The notes beneath the pieces are model-generated. The model was not told the origin of the DNA. It was given only the letters and a program-made list of their open reading frames with translations, and searched no databases. Made by a program: the position numbers and the translations under genes. A stretch of DNA of 47,006 bases from NCBI GenBank assembly GCA_020072655.1, contig JAIQGH010000039.1:1-47006 (forward strand), in the 5' to 3' direction. The DNA is from Terriglobia bacterium. GTDB lineage: Bacteria; Acidobacteriota; Terriglobia; UBA7540. Shown here one piece after another: positions 1 to 19,675 of this stretch; the stretch's first letter is position 1; every line of letters begins with the position of its first letter.

Positions 1-568
1 GAGCGCGGATTTCGGCGGCCAGCTCGGGATCGCCCGCGTCCATGAGCGCAAAGGCGTCGTGAATCAGTGCGCGGCAATGGTCCGCCGCAGGACGCGAAGG
101 CGGAAAGATTTCGAATTGAACGGCTGGGTCGGAATCCATGAACCGGGCGGAAAGGCTGAAGATGCGGCGGGCGCCACATTTCCCGCTGCCGCTCTGTCCG
201 TCAAGCTGAAGGATCCGGCGCGAGGCCAAAATAAAAGCGCCCGGTCGGGGGGGAAGACCGGGCGCTCGAAGTCGTGCGGTCGGTGTCTCCTCCTCCCATT
301 TCTCGGCGACCATCCAAAGACCGCTCACCTCAATACCCTTGCGGTCGGTCAGGCCGGTGGTTTCGATTTTGTAACCTTGGCAATTGGGATAGCTGGTGAC
401 GATCAGCAGGCCGATCCAGGCAGCGTTGCGTTTGATGTACTCGATGGTTTTCTCGTGGGTGCGACGGTTAAGTGTACCCACGAAAACGTTGGGGCGCGGC
501 TCGATAAACCAGCGTTTAAGCATTCCGCGAATGGCATCGGGCATGTCGTGGGCGATGATGACCGTCAT
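1..568 (-). CDS. cas2: Cas2 (type I-E), open frame continuing past the window edge; partial
   Basis: Cas2 is the integrase partner of Cas1 that captures spacers into the CRISPR array. The first ~91 codons match the I-E (CT1978-type) Cas2 family: an N-terminal beta strand reading TVIIAHDMPDAIRG, then a RWFIEPRPNVFVG block and a closing GLWMVAEKW strand. The ATG at 568 overlaps the cas1 stop (ATGA), which fixes the start. The frame has no stop codon: it stays open to base 1, adding about 95 codons after the normal family end (~95 aa). This tail includes a hydrophilic, protein-like stretch ending in MDAGDPELAAEIRA. It lacks the ETTG-type motif expected of the known Cas2-DEDDh exonuclease fusions, and I do not recognise it. 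A terminator-like hairpin sits where Cas2 should end. The tail could be a fused domain, a separate gene starting near 139 in the same frame, or chance reading of GC-rich DNA. The Cas2 part is secure; the extension is not. Confidence 0.85.
   Translation of the reverse strand, partial: MTVIIAHDMPDAIRGMLKRWFIEPRPNVFVGTLNRRTHEKTIEYIKRNAAWIGLLIVTSYPNCQGYKIETTGLTDRKGIEVSGLWMVAEKWEEETPTARLRAPGLPPRPGAFILASRRILQLDGQSGSGKCGARRIFSLSARFMDSDPAVQFEIFPPSRPAADHCRALIHDAFALMDAGDPELAAEIRA
228..265 (-). terminator. Rho-independent terminator-like hairpin at the end of the cas operon
   Basis: A perfect 10-bp inverted repeat (GCGCCCGGTC at 237-246 and GACCGGGCGC at 256-265) has a 9-nt loop. On the minus strand it is followed at once by TTTTATTTT (plus 228-236). 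GC-rich stem plus T-tract is the classic intrinsic terminator layout and suits the end of the minus-strand cas transcript. Oddly, it lies inside the still-open cas2 frame. Confidence 0.72.
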
Positions 569-1398
569 GCAAACAGTTCCTCCAAGTCTTTGGGAATTTT
601 TTGGAGCAGCCTTTCCTGTTCGACGCGGTCCTTGAGCAGCGTGCGAACCAGTTCGCCCTTGTCGTTGGGGTTCTGGCGCATGGCCTGAAACGCCGCCGGA
701 AAAGTCGTGATTTCTTTGTAAAGGTCAGCCACATCGTAGATGAACGGTAGCGTGCCGCCTTCGTGGACGAATCCCAGCGACGGCAAGTAACCGAGCGAGC
801 AAACGACGGCCGCGCACAACGCGTAGAGGCTGGCGTTGGCAGCAGAAAGCGCGCGATTGACATTGTCGGCCAGATTCCAGTTCGATTTGTCGTAATTGCG
901 CCCTTTCCAAGTAACCCCGTACTGCTGGCCGAGTTCACTGTACTTGGCGCGCACGCGCAACCCCTCCATGCCGCGCAACTCGGCAATGGAATACGCCTGC
1001 ACATCCACGCCGGGAAACCGGTGGGTAAACATGCGGCGGGCGATCTCGGCGCGCTTCTTCCTATCGGCCCAAGCAGCGGCGTGTTTGCGGGGCATCAAGT
1101 TGTCGTGATTGGGCGTGATGCCGAAGGCGTAGAAGCGCATCCCGTCCTCGCCGATCCAGCAGACGGGGGTATTGGAATCGGCGCAGGCTTTCATGGCCGC
1201 GTGCGTCACCGTGGTGCCCGGCCCGAGCAGCACGGCTGAGAGCGTGGCGACGGGCAGCCGGTACACCATCCGGTCCGCGCCGATCCACTTGATGCTGGAG
1301 TCATCCACTTCCAGCCGGCCGTGTTCGAGGTAAATCGGCGTCCAGCGGTCCTTCGCCGGCGTCAGCGTCTCCAAGGGCGGTTTTTCGAAGATGGGCAT
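565..1398 (-). CDS. cas1: Cas1 (type I-E adaptation integrase)
   Basis: Metal-dependent DNA integrase that, with Cas2, inserts new spacers into the CRISPR array. The 277-aa length is typical. The conserved metal-binding residues are present: Glu145 (RGMEGLRVR), His212 (LGFVHEGG), Asp222 and Asp225 (IYDVADLYK). The N-terminal beta domain carries DRWTPIYLEHGRLEVDD and the LLGPGTTVTH motif typical of I-E Cas1. It starts at ATG 1398, 3 nt after the cas5 stop, and ends overlapping cas2, so adaptation genes are translationally coupled to the Cascade genes. No catalytic residue is missing, so it should be active. Confidence 0.96.
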   Translation of the reverse strand: MPIFEKPPLETLTPAKDRWTPIYLEHGRLEVDDSSIKWIGADRMVYRLPVATLSAVLLGPGTTVTHAAMKACADSNTPVCWIGEDGMRFYAFGITPNHDNLMPRKHAAAWADRKKRAEIARRMFTHRFPGVDVQAYSIAELRGMEGLRVRAKYSELGQQYGVTWKGRNYDKSNWNLADNVNRALSAANASLYALCAAVVCSLGYLPSLGFVHEGGTLPFIYDVADLYKEITTFPAAFQAMRQNPNDKGELVRTLLKDRVEQERLLQKIPKDLEELFA

Positions 1399-1401
1399 GG
1401 A

Positions 1402-2136
1402 TCACACATCCGGAATCTTGCCGACTACGAGATTCACCCGACGAACAGCATAGTCGCGCCCCTCTGCGCTGGAACCTGATGTACCGAAGGAGACCGGTTG
1501 GTCATTGTAAGAGTCCGTCCCCGCGTTGAAGTTCGCAACTTCCTCCAGACGGGTGAATTGTTCGATAGCAGCGTTGCCAATCAATGCGCGTTCAGCTTCT
1601 GGTTGCGTTTTGAACATGCCACGGAAAATCGGTTCGGCTGGGATGCAACTCTTGCGCCCAAACCAGACACCCCAGATGGGGTCTTCGAGCGCAGCGACGG
1701 CGCGCTCTAGCATAAACCGGTCGCCTGCAAGGATAACGCCATAGCGTGCGTCGTTAAGGTATTGGCGGTGGCTGACCGTGGGATTGTCGCATGGCCCTCC
1801 AGATGCCTTGCGTGGGATGAACTGCCGTTGCGTCTTCTTATCGTAGCCACCGCCTGTGGTGTGGAAGTCCTCCAGGCGAAGGACGGGCAGCAGCCCACCC
1901 GCTCTTAGCACATTACGTGGGATGGTAATGCTGCTCATCTTCAACGCCGCCAGCTTAGGGAGCATGTCGCGCTCTTCAGGCGAGCCTTTGGCCAGACCCA
2001 TCGCGGCAGAGATCAGGCCGATGACGCCGCTCTTGGTCGGGTGCAATTCCGTGGTGCGGCGCTGAAACCGGCTGGAAAAGCCCCACGATTGCAGCGGGGC
2101 GTCCAGAAGTAGCGCAAGGTACGCAGTGTCAGACAT
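1402..2136 (-). CDS. cas5e: Cas5 (CasD, Cascade subunit)
   Basis: Cas5e caps the 5' handle of the crRNA in the Cascade complex. The N-terminus MSDTAYLALLLDAPLQSWG is the Cas5 signature. It is followed by RRTTELHPTKSGVIGLISAAMG, the family's helix after the first strand. Near residues 105-140 lies HTTGGGYDKKTQRQF with a YLNDARYGV block, as in other I-E Cas5 proteins. I chose ATG 2136 over an upstream in-frame start at 2187, because the extra residues have no family counterpart and 2136 gives an 8-nt overlap with the cas7 stop. Length 244 aa. The C-terminus (YAVRRVNLVVGKIPDV) is intact. Confidence 0.94.
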   Translation of the reverse strand: MSDTAYLALLLDAPLQSWGFSSRFQRRTTELHPTKSGVIGLISAAMGLAKGSPEERDMLPKLAALKMSSITIPRNVLRAGGLLPVLRLEDFHTTGGGYDKKTQRQFIPRKASGGPCDNPTVSHRQYLNDARYGVILAGDRFMLERAVAALEDPIWGVWFGRKSCIPAEPIFRGMFKTQPEAERALIGNAAIEQFTRLEEVANFNAGTDSYNDQPVSFGTSGSSAEGRDYAVRRVNLVVGKIPDV

Positions 2137-3226
2137 GGCGCAGAATCTCCTCGCAGAATTCGTCGAGCGGCTTGTCCGGAATGGCAATTTCCGCCGACGG
2201 CTTGATGCCCCAGGTTTTCTTCAACTGCTCGTGATGCTCCTTGAGCGCCGCGACAGAGGTGTCTATCAGTCCGCTCTTGGAGGACACCGGTTTTTCAAAA
2301 GCATTAATCAGTTGCAGAGGTTGGCCTTTGTCTTTTACAAGACCGAGCACGTAGCCCGGCATGGTGTGGGCATTCATCGAGTTTTTCCGCGCGCTGGGAA
2401 CAGCGAGAATGGTTGCGCGGAGGAAGGCGTCCACGACCGTTCGGCGGTCCTCCGCCGAGAGCGCACCAAGGTGAGAGTCATCCCCCAACAGCCCGAGATT
2501 CAGCGCGACGTAGCGGTAGTAGACTGCTGAAGTAAACTCCAGCGTTCCCATCATCCCGCTACCCGCCCGATCTTCTTCTTCAACCGTTGGGTCTTCGCCC
2601 TGCCGGTCGTCCACCGCCGTGTAAAAGTCGATGTCGTTGTCGGCGCGATGAGTTGACAAGGCATGACTGAACATCGCCGCCCCTTCCACAGTGAGTGAGT
2701 GGTCCGTGGCCACCATGCGTCCAAAGAGCGCGATATCAGCGGCATCTTTCAGCTTTGCCTCCTGGACCTTGCTCGCGGCGGACTTGATCTTCTTGTCCGA
2801 GGCCTTTGTATCCTTGCTCTCCTTGAGAATCGTGGCCAACTCCTTGCCGATTTCCTCACGTTCGGAGGGTGAAAGAAACATGAGCGTTTTGACTTTGAGA
2901 ATGCCCTTGTTCTTGAATGCGCTCTCGTCGACGGTTGCCAACCCGTCGCAGAACTTCTTGGAAGCCTCTCGCGCTTTGTCAGCCGGAGCACCATGCCGCT
3001 CGGCGGCTTCGGCTATAGGCTGGACGATGAGCTTGCTGCGTTCCCCCTTAAACAACTCCGGACACAGTTCTTTGGCTTGCAGTCGGATCGCCCGCTTCAG
3101 GCACTGGCTGGAAATGCGAGCGCGTGTGACGCCGCCGAACGTCGCCGTCTTGGGCGCCCCCACGTCGTCGCGGTTCAGGCACGAGACGGGGAACGATTGC
3201 AGGATGTGCAGTTCGATGAGTTTCAT
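2129..3226 (-). CDS. cas7e: Cas7 (CasC/Cse4, Cascade backbone)
   Basis: The backbone subunit, six copies of which line the crRNA spacer in type I-E Cascade. The 365-aa protein opens with the family signature: IELHILQSFPVSCLNRDD, then GAPKTATFGGVTRARISSQCLKRAIR (RRM core and thumb region). The middle carries FGRMVATDHSLTVEGAAMFSHALSTHRADNDIDFYTAVDD, and the C-terminal half has ARKNSMNAHTMPGYVLGLV. All are typical of Cas7e. The minus strand shows GAGAGGAA 5 nt before the ATG. It follows cas6e after 31 nt, one of the few non-overlapping junctions in the operon, and overlaps cas5. Confidence 0.96.
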   Translation of the reverse strand: MKLIELHILQSFPVSCLNRDDVGAPKTATFGGVTRARISSQCLKRAIRLQAKELCPELFKGERSKLIVQPIAEAAERHGAPADKAREASKKFCDGLATVDESAFKNKGILKVKTLMFLSPSEREEIGKELATILKESKDTKASDKKIKSAASKVQEAKLKDAADIALFGRMVATDHSLTVEGAAMFSHALSTHRADNDIDFYTAVDDRQGEDPTVEEEDRAGSGMMGTLEFTSAVYYRYVALNLGLLGDDSHLGALSAEDRRTVVDAFLRATILAVPSARKNSMNAHTMPGYVLGLVKDKGQPLQLINAFEKPVSSKSGLIDTSVAALKEHHEQLKKTWGIKPSAEIAIPDKPLDEFCEEILRHV

Positions 3227-3257
3227 GTCAGTTCCTCTCGTTTGATTTGGATCTTCC

Positions 3258-3887
3258 TTATGAGACTGGCGCGATCACCAGCAGGCCGAAGCCGAACGCC
3301 TTGGCCGAGCCGATGCCGCGCGTGAAAGCTTCGTGAAACTTGGCCGGGTCCGTCACCGTCAGCACGCCCTGAAACTCCACGGCACTGTGCAGGCCGTTCT
3401 GCCCGTTCTTCTCAAAATACTCCCTGCCACGGGAAAACGTGCGGAGCTTGGCTTCATCCACAGTGAAGCCGCCATGGTCTCCCTTGCGCTTGATCCACTC
3501 TACAAGTTCCTCGCGCTTCCCCAACGGGATGCGCCGACCGTTTTTCGTCAACGAGCCGTCGGACCGTTCCTTGGAGACTTTCTTCGTGGGGTTCGCGCAG
3601 AGTTGGAACGCATACTGGCTGCGCGTGAAATACGTTTCCGGAATGGGTTTCGTCTTCCAGCTTTCTGCGTCCCCCGGACACCAATCGGGCCGCACCGGTT
3701 GCGCGGGTGAGACGATCAGCAATCGGAAGCCCTCCGGGCGCTGGTCGAGCCGCGTCAGAAACTCGCGCCGCTCACCATTGCGGCCGGGGAAGGCCTTCCA
3801 TACTGCCTGATGCCAGTCGTAGCAATCGCGCAAGCGCAGCCGGGCGGCGGTGGCGAAATCGAGGATGACTTGGGTGAGATGGGTCAT
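3258..3887 (-). CDS. cas6e: Cas6e (CasE, pre-crRNA endoribonuclease)
   Basis: Cleaves the pre-crRNA within repeats and stays bound to the 3' hairpin in Cascade. His26 in YDWHQAVWKAFPG lies where the catalytic His of E. coli CasE (CasE His20) falls. The C-terminus GIGSAKAFGFGLLVIAP is the glycine-rich loop typical of Cas6. Length 209 aa. I chose ATG 3887, giving a 4-nt ATGA overlap with cse2, rather than the upstream start at 3989, which would run inside cse2. Its place between cse2 and cas7 is unusual: in E. coli and S. thermophilus I-E loci it follows cas5. Confidence 0.93.
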   Translation of the reverse strand: MTHLTQVILDFATAARLRLRDCYDWHQAVWKAFPGRNGERREFLTRLDQRPEGFRLLIVSPAQPVRPDWCPGDAESWKTKPIPETYFTRSQYAFQLCANPTKKVSKERSDGSLTKNGRRIPLGKREELVEWIKRKGDHGGFTVDEAKLRTFSRGREYFEKNGQNGLHSAVEFQGVLTVTDPAKFHEAFTRGIGSAKAFGFGLLVIAPVS

Positions 3888-4390
3888 GGCGTGGCCTCCG
3901 ATACACTCACAGCAGCGGGCTCTTCGCTTCCCGGCGAACCCCAGTATTCCTGCGCCCAGCGGGCTTTCACGTTGTCGCCCCAGTAACAAAGATCAGCGAA
4001 AAGCTCCTCGTAGTTGATCGGTATCCCTTTGGCTCTTGCGGCGAGAACTACGGGACGCAGTCGCTCGCAAATCTCGTCGCGGTCGCAAGAGAGCAGGCGT
4101 CGGAATCGGCCATCGAACGATTCGTTCTGTTTTTTGAGCCGCAGGCAGGTCGTTCCGAGATTGCCGTTGTCGGTTTCGTCAGGATGGTAAGCGAACAGGC
4201 CGACAACGGCTTCGATGCGGGGATTGCCGATGCCGCCCACGCGCGCCAGCAAGGGCCAAGCGCGGGGGAGTTTGGTGGGACTCAACGCGCAGCGCAGATC
4301 AGCCATCGCACCCCGGTCGTTCTTGAGTCGGCGTAGGTGGGCCAACAAGCGTGCGGCGGCTTCCTTGGGATCGAATTGATCGGCACTCAT
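3884..4390 (-). CDS. cse2: Cse2 (CasB, Cascade small subunit)
   Basis: The alpha-helical small subunit, present twice in the belly of type I-E Cascade, where it stabilises the R-loop. The 168-aa sequence shows the family pattern: an N-terminal LLAHLRRLKNDRGAMADLRCALSPTKLPRAWPLL region, then the NLGTTCLRLKKQ and FDGRFRRLLSCDRDEICERLRPVV helices. It starts at ATG 4390, 2 nt after the cse1 stop, and ends overlapping cas6e. The acidic tail of about 15 residues looks like an unstructured extension. Confidence 0.92.
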   Translation of the reverse strand: MSADQFDPKEAAARLLAHLRRLKNDRGAMADLRCALSPTKLPRAWPLLARVGGIGNPRIEAVVGLFAYHPDETDNGNLGTTCLRLKKQNESFDGRFRRLLSCDRDEICERLRPVVLAARAKGIPINYEELFADLCYWGDNVKARWAQEYWGSPGSEEPAAVSVSEATP

Positions 4391-4392
4391 GC

Positions 4393-5946
4393 TTAAACCT
4401 CCTTTTCGGTTCCAACCTCGGCTGATTCGGCGGGCGCAGCGAACAATGTCTTCAGCCCCAAAGCATACGCGCGTATCTGGCGTGGTGTCTCACGCGTGCA
4501 GGCCCTTTCATACGCCGCACGGGCGGCGCGCCAGAGGGATTGTCCCCAAGCGGTCTTGTTCCACTCGGATTTCAGCCCAAGGCTTTCGGGAGCGGCCGCA
4601 ACCTCCAGCAAGCGCGGCAAGGCACTTTCGATGTCCGTCCAGAACTGGGCGGCGGCGTTGCTCTGGATTTGCTGGCGCCGGTTTTTCATTTCGGGCCGGT
4701 CAAGATTGTCACCGAGTTCCTTGTGGTAAACTGAGGCGGCCCGCTTGACGCGAAACGCCATGGTTTCCGCCAACCGTACTCCAGCTTCGTAAACCATCTG
4801 GCTAGGTTCTTTCAGCATCGCGGAAGGGACATGGAACACGGACTCCGTCGTATCCAGCGGTTTGGCTTTGTTGGCGACCAGGCCCCCCACCCAAAGATCG
4901 AATGCTTCCTGGTCGTCAGCGATGTTCTGCAGCGCGGCAGGGCCGCCGGGATTTTGGCCGACAGCTTTGACGGTCAGGGCGTGCAACTCGCGCCACGCGG
5001 CCTCGTCGATCGAAGCCGGTAATAGGACACGCGTAGGCTGGCCTTTCACGGTCCGGGTGACAATCGTAGCGGAAGGCTCGCGCCATCCATCAGCATAGGA
5101 CTCATATTCCAGCCCGTTGGCGAGGATGAGAGATCGGCAATCATCCGCAAGCCAAATTGCGCGGGTTAGCGGAACAAGTCGACCTAAGTAAGTGCGGTTG
5201 GAGTTCCGCACGGCTTCGGCGTCGGCAAGTCGCTGGGGCATCAACTCCCAGACCGCTCTGCCCCAGGAGTCCTGCCCGAAGAACTGCTCGGCCTGCCGTT
5301 TGGTCATAAGGTTTTTGTGCAGAGTGGCGAGTAGATTGTCGCCTCGGAGCAGCGCGTGCAACATCCCGCCGGCAAGGCACGGCGCATGGTCGCTCGATCC
5401 TTTGCCGGCCGTTTCCTTACCGTTCCATAACGCCACTCCGATGCGACCACCGGGAGAAAAACACTGGAATGTCGTCAGCATCAAAGCGAGTTCGCCAGGC
5501 GTGAAAGCCCGCTCTGAGCCACCCGCGTTGTCAAAAAGCGTTGTGTTGTTGCCCGTGGCCAGCGCGAGATCGAGCTTGCTGGTCGAGTTGCCTTCATCGT
5601 CATCATCGCCATTGGACTTGGTCGTAGCCTTCTTTAAGTTGGCAGCCTGCGAGAAGCGCTGGCCGTTGCCGAACAACTCGAAGGCGTGTCGCCAACGATT
5701 GAGGTATTCGAGCGCCGACGGCACTATGCGTGGTCGGCACGCCTCCCAGTGGTCTTGGTCGCTTGGGCCGTCGAGCGCCGCCTGCGCGATGCAAATCAGC
5801 AGCCGCACCAGGGCGATGCGTTCATGCGGGCGGACAGCAAGGTCTCGAATCTCATGGCCTCGCTCGAACGCTTCGCGCAGGCTGACGGTTCCCGGTTTGC
5901 CCTCATTCCACACAATCGGAATCCAAGCTTCAGTCGTAAGATTCAT
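4393..5946 (-). CDS. cse1: Cse1 (CasA, Cascade large subunit, PAM recognition)
   Basis: Large Cascade subunit that reads the PAM and recruits Cas3. The N-terminus MNLTTEAWIPIVWNEGKPG with SLREAFERG is characteristic. A glycine-containing loop (FSPGGRIGVALWNGK, about residues 160-175) corresponds to the PAM-sensing region. The C-terminal four-helix bundle is seen in the WTDIESALPRLLEVAA to AWGQSLWRAARAAYERAC part. About 517 aa. ATG 5946 overlaps the end of cas3 by 17 nt; upstream ATGs at 5967 and 5958 are possible but add only a few residues without family support. Confidence 0.94.
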   Translation of the reverse strand: MNLTTEAWIPIVWNEGKPGTVSLREAFERGHEIRDLAVRPHERIALVRLLICIAQAALDGPSDQDHWEACRPRIVPSALEYLNRWRHAFELFGNGQRFSQAANLKKATTKSNGDDDDEGNSTSKLDLALATGNNTTLFDNAGGSERAFTPGELALMLTTFQCFSPGGRIGVALWNGKETAGKGSSDHAPCLAGGMLHALLRGDNLLATLHKNLMTKRQAEQFFGQDSWGRAVWELMPQRLADAEAVRNSNRTYLGRLVPLTRAIWLADDCRSLILANGLEYESYADGWREPSATIVTRTVKGQPTRVLLPASIDEAAWRELHALTVKAVGQNPGGPAALQNIADDQEAFDLWVGGLVANKAKPLDTTESVFHVPSAMLKEPSQMVYEAGVRLAETMAFRVKRAASVYHKELGDNLDRPEMKNRRQQIQSNAAAQFWTDIESALPRLLEVAAAPESLGLKSEWNKTAWGQSLWRAARAAYERACTRETPRQIRAYALGLKTLFAAPAESAEVGTEKEV

Positions 5947-8527
5947 CGGACTCCTCATGAAGCGCACGCGGCAAACGCTCGCGTTCGATGATGATACCCT
6001 GATCGGGGTGATATGAAAGCCCTGTCTGCTGTTCGTCGCCGGACCAGCGGATGTTGCCAGCCGGTTGCAGCAGTCCGGTGGCGGTGGGTTGCGAAACGTG
6101 ATTGGTCAACCAGCCCGGTGGCTTAGTGAGACCGGTCGCAACGGCCCAGCGCGGCACACGGACGAGATTGCGATGGATGGCTTTGACGGCGTCAAAGTTC
6201 CAGTCGCGGTCATGGGCTGTGATTACCGCGCCGTCGAGCAGGCAGAGACGCGCCGAGTGCCGGTCAAGCGAGGTGATCTCCGTCGCCAGAAGCAATTGGG
6301 CCATCGGGTAGGTACTGAAACGGGTCTGAATGCCTTCCTCGTCCGGCAAGGCCGGGTTGTTCCAGATGGTGGTGGCGTTGAGGGCTTGCCGGGCCATTTT
6401 CTCTTTTTGCTTCTCCAACTGTTCTCGCAGTTCCTGCCAGGCGGGCGGCTCGGCGGCGGTGGGGTCGGCGTAGGTGGCTTCGAGAATCGGGCGGATGTCG
6501 TCGGGCAACGTGATCGTCGCTCTCCCGCGCCACTGTTGGAGCGAACGCAGTAGGATGTAGGGCGCATAGACACGTGCGCTCTTGCCCAGAGCCCGGCGAA
6601 GTTCCTTCTCGCTCGCGTCGCGCAGTGAGGCATCATCCGAGTGCGGCATCTGAATCCAGACTTCGGGTTGTGGACAGGGACGGAGGGGCCGGTCGTGGCG
6701 CCACAGACGGCCGATCCGTTGTAATAGCATGTCGGTCGGAGCGAGGTCCGTAATTAGCAGGTCGGCGTCGATATCCACACTCTGCTCGGCAACTTGGGTT
6801 GAAACCAAGATGCAGCCGTTGGGCCGATTAGTGGAGTCCTTGCCGAGTCGGATCATCCAGTCGGTTTCGAGCTGTTCGCGGCGGAAAAAAGGAAAGCGAG
6901 AATGCAGCAGCGCGACGCTGGGACCGCCTTGGAAATTGGCGCTCTGAAGTGCCCGGTAGGTCTCTTGGGCCTCATCGACCGTGTTGTGAATCCACAGCAA
7001 ACATTCGCCGTCGGAGGCGCGATCGATGGCCTCTTCCACCGGCAAGGCAGCGGAGACGTTGCGTATCTGAATCGTCTTCGCTGGCGGTGCCTCGCACGTG
7101 CTCTCGATGAGTGAGCTTGCCACACCGGAAACTAGCGGATAACCCGCGCTGAGCGGTTGCTGGTCGGCCAGTCCGAGCAACTCGTGGCGTCGCTTTCCCG
7201 TGAGAGTGGCGGACAAGATGATGACGGTGCATTGCAGTTCGCGCAGCCGTTTCGCCATCGCGTCAATGAGCGTGCTGGTGTAAAGATCGTAGGTGTGCAC
7301 CTCATCGAGGATCACCACCTTTCCGGCAAGTCCGAACTGCCGGACGAAGAAATGCTTGGCCGCCACAATACCCAGCAACGCTTGGTCTATCGTGCCAACA
7401 CCAAACGGCGCGAGCAGCGCCCGCTTAGCTGACGCGAACCAGGAGCGCCCGGCGTGGACATGATTCCTTGCTTCCTCGTCATTCGCGATGGCCGGGGACA
7501 GTTGTGCTGGCGGGTCGGTCTCGGCAAGCCAGGAGGCGCTGTGGGCGAGCCGCACTGCTGCCGGGCTAGCGCAAATCCGATCAACGAACGGCTGCACACG
7601 CAGATGAATCCGGTTACTGGTCACTTGTGTCGGCAACGCGAAATACAACCCGGTCGCTTTTCCTGTCGCGATGAGTCGATGCGCTGCCGCCAGCGCCGCC
7701 TCCGTCTTGCCGCAGCCCATCGGCCCTTCGATGACGTAAGTGCCTGGCTCTCCCACCACCTGGTCGGTTGTTGTCTGTAAGCTGTTCGCCTGCGGGATTT
7801 CAGGGAATAACTCAGCGAATTCGGTCAATTGCCTTACTTCAACTGATCTCCAGTTGATCGTGGCCAACGCCGTCTGCGCTCGGCGACGCCGCTCCGACAC
7901 GTCCCAACGCGCATCGAGTGGGAAGTGCCTCTCGTCTGAACCGATCCAGTCGGCAATCGTAATCAGCCCGGCCACGAACCAGATTGTTGCATCGCCGGGC
8001 GACTGATCCGGCAACGGTCCGAATTCCCTCATGAGTTCCGCCGCCAATCGGCAGCGTTCCTCTTCCCACGGTTCCTGCACTTGCACCCGTTCACCTTTGA
8101 TCCGTCCATGGTGCGTACCGACGGCCGCCGCCCAGATTTGGAGTCGAGGGCTTTGGAGCAACTCCTGCACGGTAAATTGGCTGATCCTGGCGTGGTCAGA
8201 CTCCCGCATGCTCCAGCCTTCCTTCAGCGCACGATCCCTCAGCGCGTGATGCACCAACCACGCTTCGTTCTTCCGTTGAAACCCCGGCGAGACCTTGCCG
8301 ATGTCATGCAGCGCGGCAAGAGTGGCGGCGCCGGGCGGGATGAGCATTTGGAGTTGGGGCGGGAGCAAGGCCAGCAGCGCTTCGGCGACGCATCCGACGT
8401 TCAGGCAGTGGTCGCGGACGCTGATGCCGGGCCGGCCATCTTCGGTCGTCTTCGCCCAACATTCCTCGTGGCGCAAAACCTTGGCCGTCGCGAAGGACTT
8501 TCTGTCTCCTCTCGGTGGAGCTGGCAC
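5930..8527 (-). CDS. cas3: Cas3 (HD nuclease-helicase fusion)
   Basis: Cascade-recruited nuclease-helicase that degrades invader DNA. The N-terminal HD domain has His40 (SVRDHCLNVG), His74-Asp75 (LHDIGK) and THHGR near 138-142. The SF2 helicase follows with Walker A GPMGCGKTEA (~270), DEVH box (VVILDEVHTYD), SAT motif (ILSATL) and motif VI QRIGRLWRHDRP. Length up to 865 aa, normal for an HD-Cas3 fusion. The longest frame begins at GTG 8527 without a good ribosome site. A GAGGAGA a little downstream suggests that initiation at an internal TTG (about codon 18) is also possible. First gene of the cas operon; the 264 nt upstream carry two perfect inverted repeats. Confidence 0.94.
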   Translation of the reverse strand: MPAPPRGDRKSFATAKVLRHEECWAKTTEDGRPGISVRDHCLNVGCVAEALLALLPPQLQMLIPPGAATLAALHDIGKVSPGFQRKNEAWLVHHALRDRALKEGWSMRESDHARISQFTVQELLQSPRLQIWAAAVGTHHGRIKGERVQVQEPWEEERCRLAAELMREFGPLPDQSPGDATIWFVAGLITIADWIGSDERHFPLDARWDVSERRRRAQTALATINWRSVEVRQLTEFAELFPEIPQANSLQTTTDQVVGEPGTYVIEGPMGCGKTEAALAAAHRLIATGKATGLYFALPTQVTSNRIHLRVQPFVDRICASPAAVRLAHSASWLAETDPPAQLSPAIANDEEARNHVHAGRSWFASAKRALLAPFGVGTIDQALLGIVAAKHFFVRQFGLAGKVVILDEVHTYDLYTSTLIDAMAKRLRELQCTVIILSATLTGKRRHELLGLADQQPLSAGYPLVSGVASSLIESTCEAPPAKTIQIRNVSAALPVEEAIDRASDGECLLWIHNTVDEAQETYRALQSANFQGGPSVALLHSRFPFFRREQLETDWMIRLGKDSTNRPNGCILVSTQVAEQSVDIDADLLITDLAPTDMLLQRIGRLWRHDRPLRPCPQPEVWIQMPHSDDASLRDASEKELRRALGKSARVYAPYILLRSLQQWRGRATITLPDDIRPILEATYADPTAAEPPAWQELREQLEKQKEKMARQALNATTIWNNPALPDEEGIQTRFSTYPMAQLLLATEITSLDRHSARLCLLDGAVITAHDRDWNFDAVKAIHRNLVRVPRWAVATGLTKPPGWLTNHVSQPTATGLLQPAGNIRWSGDEQQTGLSYHPDQGIIIERERLPRALHEESDESYD

Positions 8528-16121: not shown

Positions 16122-16133
16122 GCCGCGGTCGAA

Positions 16134-16264
16134 GACAGACGGCAGACGGCAGAAGGCAGAAGGCAGAAGGCAGAAGGCAGAAGGCAGAAGGCAGAAGGCA
16201 GAAGGCAGAAGGCAGAAGGCAGAAGGCAGTGTTCCTTCCTGGGTGCGGCTAGCTCGTGCAACCG
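16134..16264. repeat. Heptamer tandem array (GGCAGAA)n with conserved right flank, copy 1
   Basis: About 12 copies of GGCAGAA follow the glucosidase stop. The right flank CCTTCCTGGGTGCGGCTAGC and CTCGTGCAACCG also occurs at the second copy (19587-19675), so array and flank form one dispersed repeat family. It is not a CRISPR: units are 7 bp with no spacers. Confidence 0.85.
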
Positions 16265-19582: not shown

Positions 19583-19586
19583 CCGA

Positions 19587-19675
19587 GGCAGAAGGCAGAA
19601 GGCAGAAGGCAGAAGGCAGAAGGCAGAAGGCAGAAGGCAATGATCCTTCTTGGGTGCTGGCAACTCGTGCAACCG
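19587..19675. repeat. Heptamer tandem array (GGCAGAA)n with conserved right flank, copy 2
   Basis: About 7.5 copies of GGCAGAA directly after the ZIP gene, then the same right-flank sequence as copy 1 (CCTTCTTGGGTGCTGGCAAC, CTCGTGCAACCG), followed by AAAATCCAAAATC-type simple sequence. Copy number differs from copy 1, as expected of a slipping repeat. Confidence 0.85.

Follow-up and report, generated by a model that had tools for sequence, protein, structure and literature searches.

The type I-E Cas2 gene at the tip of this contig has no stop codon, and the explanation in which we have considerable confidence is that an ordinary Cas2 is joined, by a junction at about position 240–260, to unrelated DNA that carries an in-frame piece of an HExxH-type gene. 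The window (the whole stretch of DNA that was analysed) is a complete contig of 47,006 bases, C7 of assembly G000, and position 1 is a genuine contig end. Read on the minus strand from 568 to 2, the Cas2e frame has 189 codons counted from ATG 568 and no stop, which confirms the initial annotation's description of a Cas2 frame running open to the window edge; the peptide segments quoted there are present, as is an in-frame ATG at 139. The contig end and the operon beside it are laid out as follows.

2–139, minus strand: part of a gene resembling aKG-HExxH peptide beta-hydroxylase, either its start or a 5'-truncated fragment, interrupted by the contig end (71% over 45 aa)
140–235, minus strand: stretch from the hairpin to the ATG, without a match in related Cas2 genes or at the N-terminus of HExxH proteins
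236–266, minus strand (that of cas2): intrinsic-terminator-like hairpin with a stem of 11 bp and a loop of 9, then TTTATTTT (−24.6 kcal/mol, z −3.9 versus 200 shuffles)
250–301, minus strand: Cas2e C-terminal extension, about codons 90–106, partly common to the closest relative and without its stop
302–568, minus strand: Cas2e core, about codons 1–89 (PF09707, E 2.4e-20, residues 1–85; TIGR01873, E 8.5e-18, residues 1–84)
565–1398, minus strand: cas1e (TIGR03638, E 6.9e-96), the sole Cas1 of the assembly
1402–8527, minus strand: the remaining type I-E operon (cas5, cas7, cas6, cse2, cse1 and cas3)

Both its core and its surroundings identify the gene as Cas2e. It scores 64.3 bits with TIGR01873, for which the curated cut-off is 33.15, and it comes after cas1e within the I-E operon. 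The gene set beside it is complete (cas3, cse1, cse2, cas7, cas5, cas6, cas1 and cas2). Core residues 1–85 and the cas1–cas2 order closing the operon are shared with type I-E Cas2 in general (TIGR01873/PF09707), whereas the usual context, a stop after about 95–120 codons and then a leader and array, which is not part of the definition, is lacking here: within the contig no stop, leader or array follows and the frame is open to the end. C7 carries the assembly's only Cas1 and its only Cas2e; no second copy of either was found. A repeated element at the contig end was ruled out, as window positions 1–700 are single-copy in the assembly. Further along the window lie two 7-base tandem arrays with GAAGGCA / AGGCAGA units (16131–16264 and 19586–19675), both followed by a similar sequence of about 35 bases and 92% identical over 90 bases.

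Related loci show where Cas2 would be expected to end. The comparison covered 33 further Cas2e loci, of which 12 came from 399 genomes of the class and 21 from 396 genomes of the phylum; the window's own copy was left out. A stop lies 93–120 codons past the Cas2 start in every one of them (in L059 the Cas2 part has 105 codons), and at codons 104–111 in the four closest class relatives, G072, G673, G021 and G525 (80–85% identity). None of the 33 is fused. The initial annotation had raised a Cas2 fusion as one reading and suggested checking related I-E loci for a conserved fused architecture; by its own test, which turned on where related genomes end Cas2, that reading fails. In the same four relatives a short leader comes next, and then repeats of the form GTT[C/T]TCCCCAC[G/A]CGCGTGGGGATGGTCC begin 17–50 bases past the stop. 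A CRISPR repeat follows Cas2e in 31 of the 33 loci: an array was detected automatically past the stop in 28 (27 within 131 bases, one at 580), and L003, L051 and L067 show a repeat ahead of the contig end. At the remaining two, L066 (G457) and L070 (G335), a separate exonuclease-like frame lies directly after Cas2e in another reading frame, replacing the adjacent array; it carries what we take to be an ETTG-type motif and is presumably DnaQ-like in L066 and RNase-H-like in L070. On plasmids, none of 70 records with Cas2e matched at least 80% of the 189 residues, and among the 20 plasmid matches listed the match covers only residues 1–96. One of the four closest relatives, G021, carries a 142-base copy (94%) of an internal part of cas1e about 2.7 kb past its own array (L019:18325–18466), adjoining a frame whose end, we assume, resembles a HigB-type toxin.

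The point at which the window departs from its relatives can be placed closely. Aligned with G072 DNA, the frame is ungapped over its first 318 bases at 80.5% identity, and identity collapses from frame base 325 on (3/12, then 2/12), at about window 245–250. The hairpin at 236–266, which the initial annotation does not mention, has a stem longer than any other of its kind in the window and in 20 kb of a second contig, C182, and base shuffles gave none; the routine terminator scan allows loops of 8 at most, so this hairpin, with its loop of 9, escaped it. Its left arm matches G072 DNA that codes for Cas2 at 10 of 12 bases and, given this likeness, the hairpin may not be simply an imported terminator. 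A hairpin with the same stem occurs in one viral contig.

Between the Cas2 homology and the tail, the frame is open without reading clearly as a gene. With codon use learned from the window's other cas genes, Cas2 scored 0.41, codons 93–143 scored 0.04, and codons 144–189, the tail, scored 0.31; random sequence scored −0.33 (s.d. 0.16), and an opposite-strand frame across the linker, at 0.15, scored above the linker itself. The linker thus neither scores clearly as coding nor looks like random sequence. Openness of the frame is not evidence of coding, because the simulated chance of meeting no stop over the 45 codons from the end of Cas2 homology to ATG 139 is 0.34–0.64, depending on the null used. 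No promoter was found before ATG 139 by scan, and no ribosome-binding site by eye.

Genome contigs were scanned with window positions 2–148, and two relatives of the tail were found, both in MAGs of other organisms. The better match, 71% over 45 residues, is to residues 97–141 of a 304-residue protein in a Verrucomicrobia MAG (QHNV01000108.1); the second, 48% over 48 residues, is to a protein of 332 residues from an uncultured proteobacterium (CAADGG010000033.1). Both proteins carry the HExxH motif and match TIGR04267 (E 8e-24 for the 304-residue protein, 1.2e-31 for the 332-residue one), and homology to these two members links the tail to that family. The tail differs from the aKG-HExxH peptide beta-hydroxylases (TIGR04267, mod_HExxH) in how little of the protein is there: the window holds just a 46-codon piece, which ends early in the domain and before the HExxH motif, and the motif would fall past the contig end. 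The domain model starts at residue 122 of the 304-residue homologue and the tail match at residue 97, and the approximately 95 residues N-terminal to the matched part have no counterpart in the window. The TIGR04267 profile found nothing in the G000 assembly even at E 1, and the remainder of the gene is absent from that assembly. The HExxH gene had no match in 100 sampled relatives, and in 396 phylum genomes (the window's own included) seven others match weakly. Directly upstream of the HExxH gene at another locus (L039:1–460) are two tandem frames of about 48 codons and similar sequence, neither with an NCBIfam match, a position that would suit precursor peptides for enzymes of this kind.

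Other searches with the tail added no relatives that we retained. Among 101 relatives the 46-residue tail matches only itself, and it has no match in plasmids, phages or viral contigs. At E up to 1, weak matches appeared in 148 other genomes of 396; we read back 19 of these loci (one, L024, gave no output, and L025, L027 and L029 were read at a place other than that listed). A conserved family near the host was rejected here: 18 of the 19 kept their match, and they look like chance similarities in unrelated frames. A match in G053 (L008) was also dropped, as its frame has a stop inside; we take that frame to be aminotransferase-like.

Members of the aKG-HExxH family hydroxylate ribosomally made peptides, and some cleave the backbone (PMC12636437). 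Judged by homology, the tail is a predicted piece of this peptide-modification enzyme family and not of a nuclease, and the spacer-trimming role that the initial annotation had suggested finds no support. Pfam has no match beyond Cas2 in the 189-codon frame. The annotation was right that the tail has no ETTG motif: there is none in its 91 residues, in a frame that is cut and could hold a later domain. Known type I-E Cas2 fusions carry DnaQ (PMC13034035). The window resembles the Cas2–DnaQ fusion of some type I-E systems in having an extra coding segment after Cas2 in an I-E locus; it differs in that the tail matches an HExxH peptide hydroxylase, not a DEDDh exonuclease, and in that there is no conserved fusion.

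Within G000, repeats of the type seen in the close relatives are confined to the left end of contig C182, where seven full repeats occupy 43–436, a partial repeat stands at 1–10 and the leader side is missing. As the assembly's one Cas1 and one Cas2e are both on C7, the C182 array most likely belongs to this I-E system. The array contig (L017, G000:C182, 1–5093) runs into a tyrosine-recombinase-like gene at 4002–5093, which suggests an integrated element adjoining the array.

Under the preferred explanation, the last codons of Cas2, its stop, the leader and the adjacent array would have been lost through the junction at about window 240–260. The foreign DNA would bring a terminator-like hairpin and then, from ATG 139, either the start or a 5'-truncated fragment of a gene resembling those for aKG-HExxH hydroxylases, which would share the Cas2 reading frame by chance and be cut by the contig end; the tail would have no function in adaptation. 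Two of the three readings in the initial annotation, a separate gene from ATG 139 and chance, together fit the evidence, since a terminator-like hairpin and a stretch that does not score clearly as coding part the HExxH-family tail from Cas2; the remaining one, a new fusion partner, does not. Counting against the junction are the tail being in phase with Cas2 and the whole frame being open, as a real fusion would show, together with a linker that scores above random, a hairpin left arm that is Cas2-like, the lack of a promoter or ribosome-binding site ahead of ATG 139 in the searches above, and an HExxH gene seen in part only.

As to the nature of the junction, we tentatively place an assembly artefact first: the last 240–260 bases of the contig would stem from a different locus or organism, and in the true genome cas2 would be followed by a stop, leader and array. 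The junction lies at the contig tip, and the array with these repeats is on a different contig, one broken inside a repeat at the leader side. Neither the 100 relatives nor the remainder of the assembly contains the HExxH family, and the best match of the tail is in the MAG of another organism. The G+C content of the tail, however, is 0.633, not far from the 0.607 of the window.

A real rearrangement is also possible, and we rank it second. A segment with the HExxH gene would have been inserted between cas2 and the leader, or the array moved off, leaving cas2 without a stop. The array does exist elsewhere in the assembly, and a terminator-like hairpin stands where a gene boundary would be; that such loci do get rearranged is seen in G021, with its displaced 142-nt cas1 piece beyond the array. 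However, the arrangement was seen at none of the other loci compared, no insertion-element ends were found, and the assembly contains just one copy of the tail. Should the junction be real, we infer that transcripts ending at the hairpin would carry no stop, so that Cas2 would depend on ribosome rescue, or that read-through would produce a fusion. Our slight lean towards an assembly join is due to the position of the junction at the contig tip and to the array contig being broken on the matching side.

It is unlikely that Cas2e and an aKG-HExxH hydroxylase domain are really translated as one fused protein. The open frame is continuous and in phase, and the missing part could hold the whole domain, given that the domain model begins downstream of the first matched homologue residue. 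However, no other Cas2e locus compared is fused, the frame contains a strong hairpin with a T tail, the linker does not score clearly as coding, and the enzyme class acts on peptides (PMC12636437). A single base error masking the normal Cas2 stop is barely credible: the relatives' stop falls at the same place, but sequence past about 250 matches no close relative's leader or repeat, and all three minus-strand frames are free of stops from 327 to 203, so a single indel could not restore one before the hairpin.

A conserved or functional Cas2 fusion is, by the same comparisons, unlikely, and we consider it very improbable that a Cas2e–HExxH fusion or co-translated pair ties peptide or protein hydroxylation to CRISPR adaptation, for example by modifying Cas1–Cas2. 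If the fusion were real, it would be, to our knowledge, the first link between CRISPR adaptation and the aKG-HExxH hydroxylase family. In a G+C-rich genome, a frame left open at the tip of a contig is easily taken for a new Cas fusion, and comparison with relatives reveals both the expected end of Cas2 and the identity of the extra sequence.
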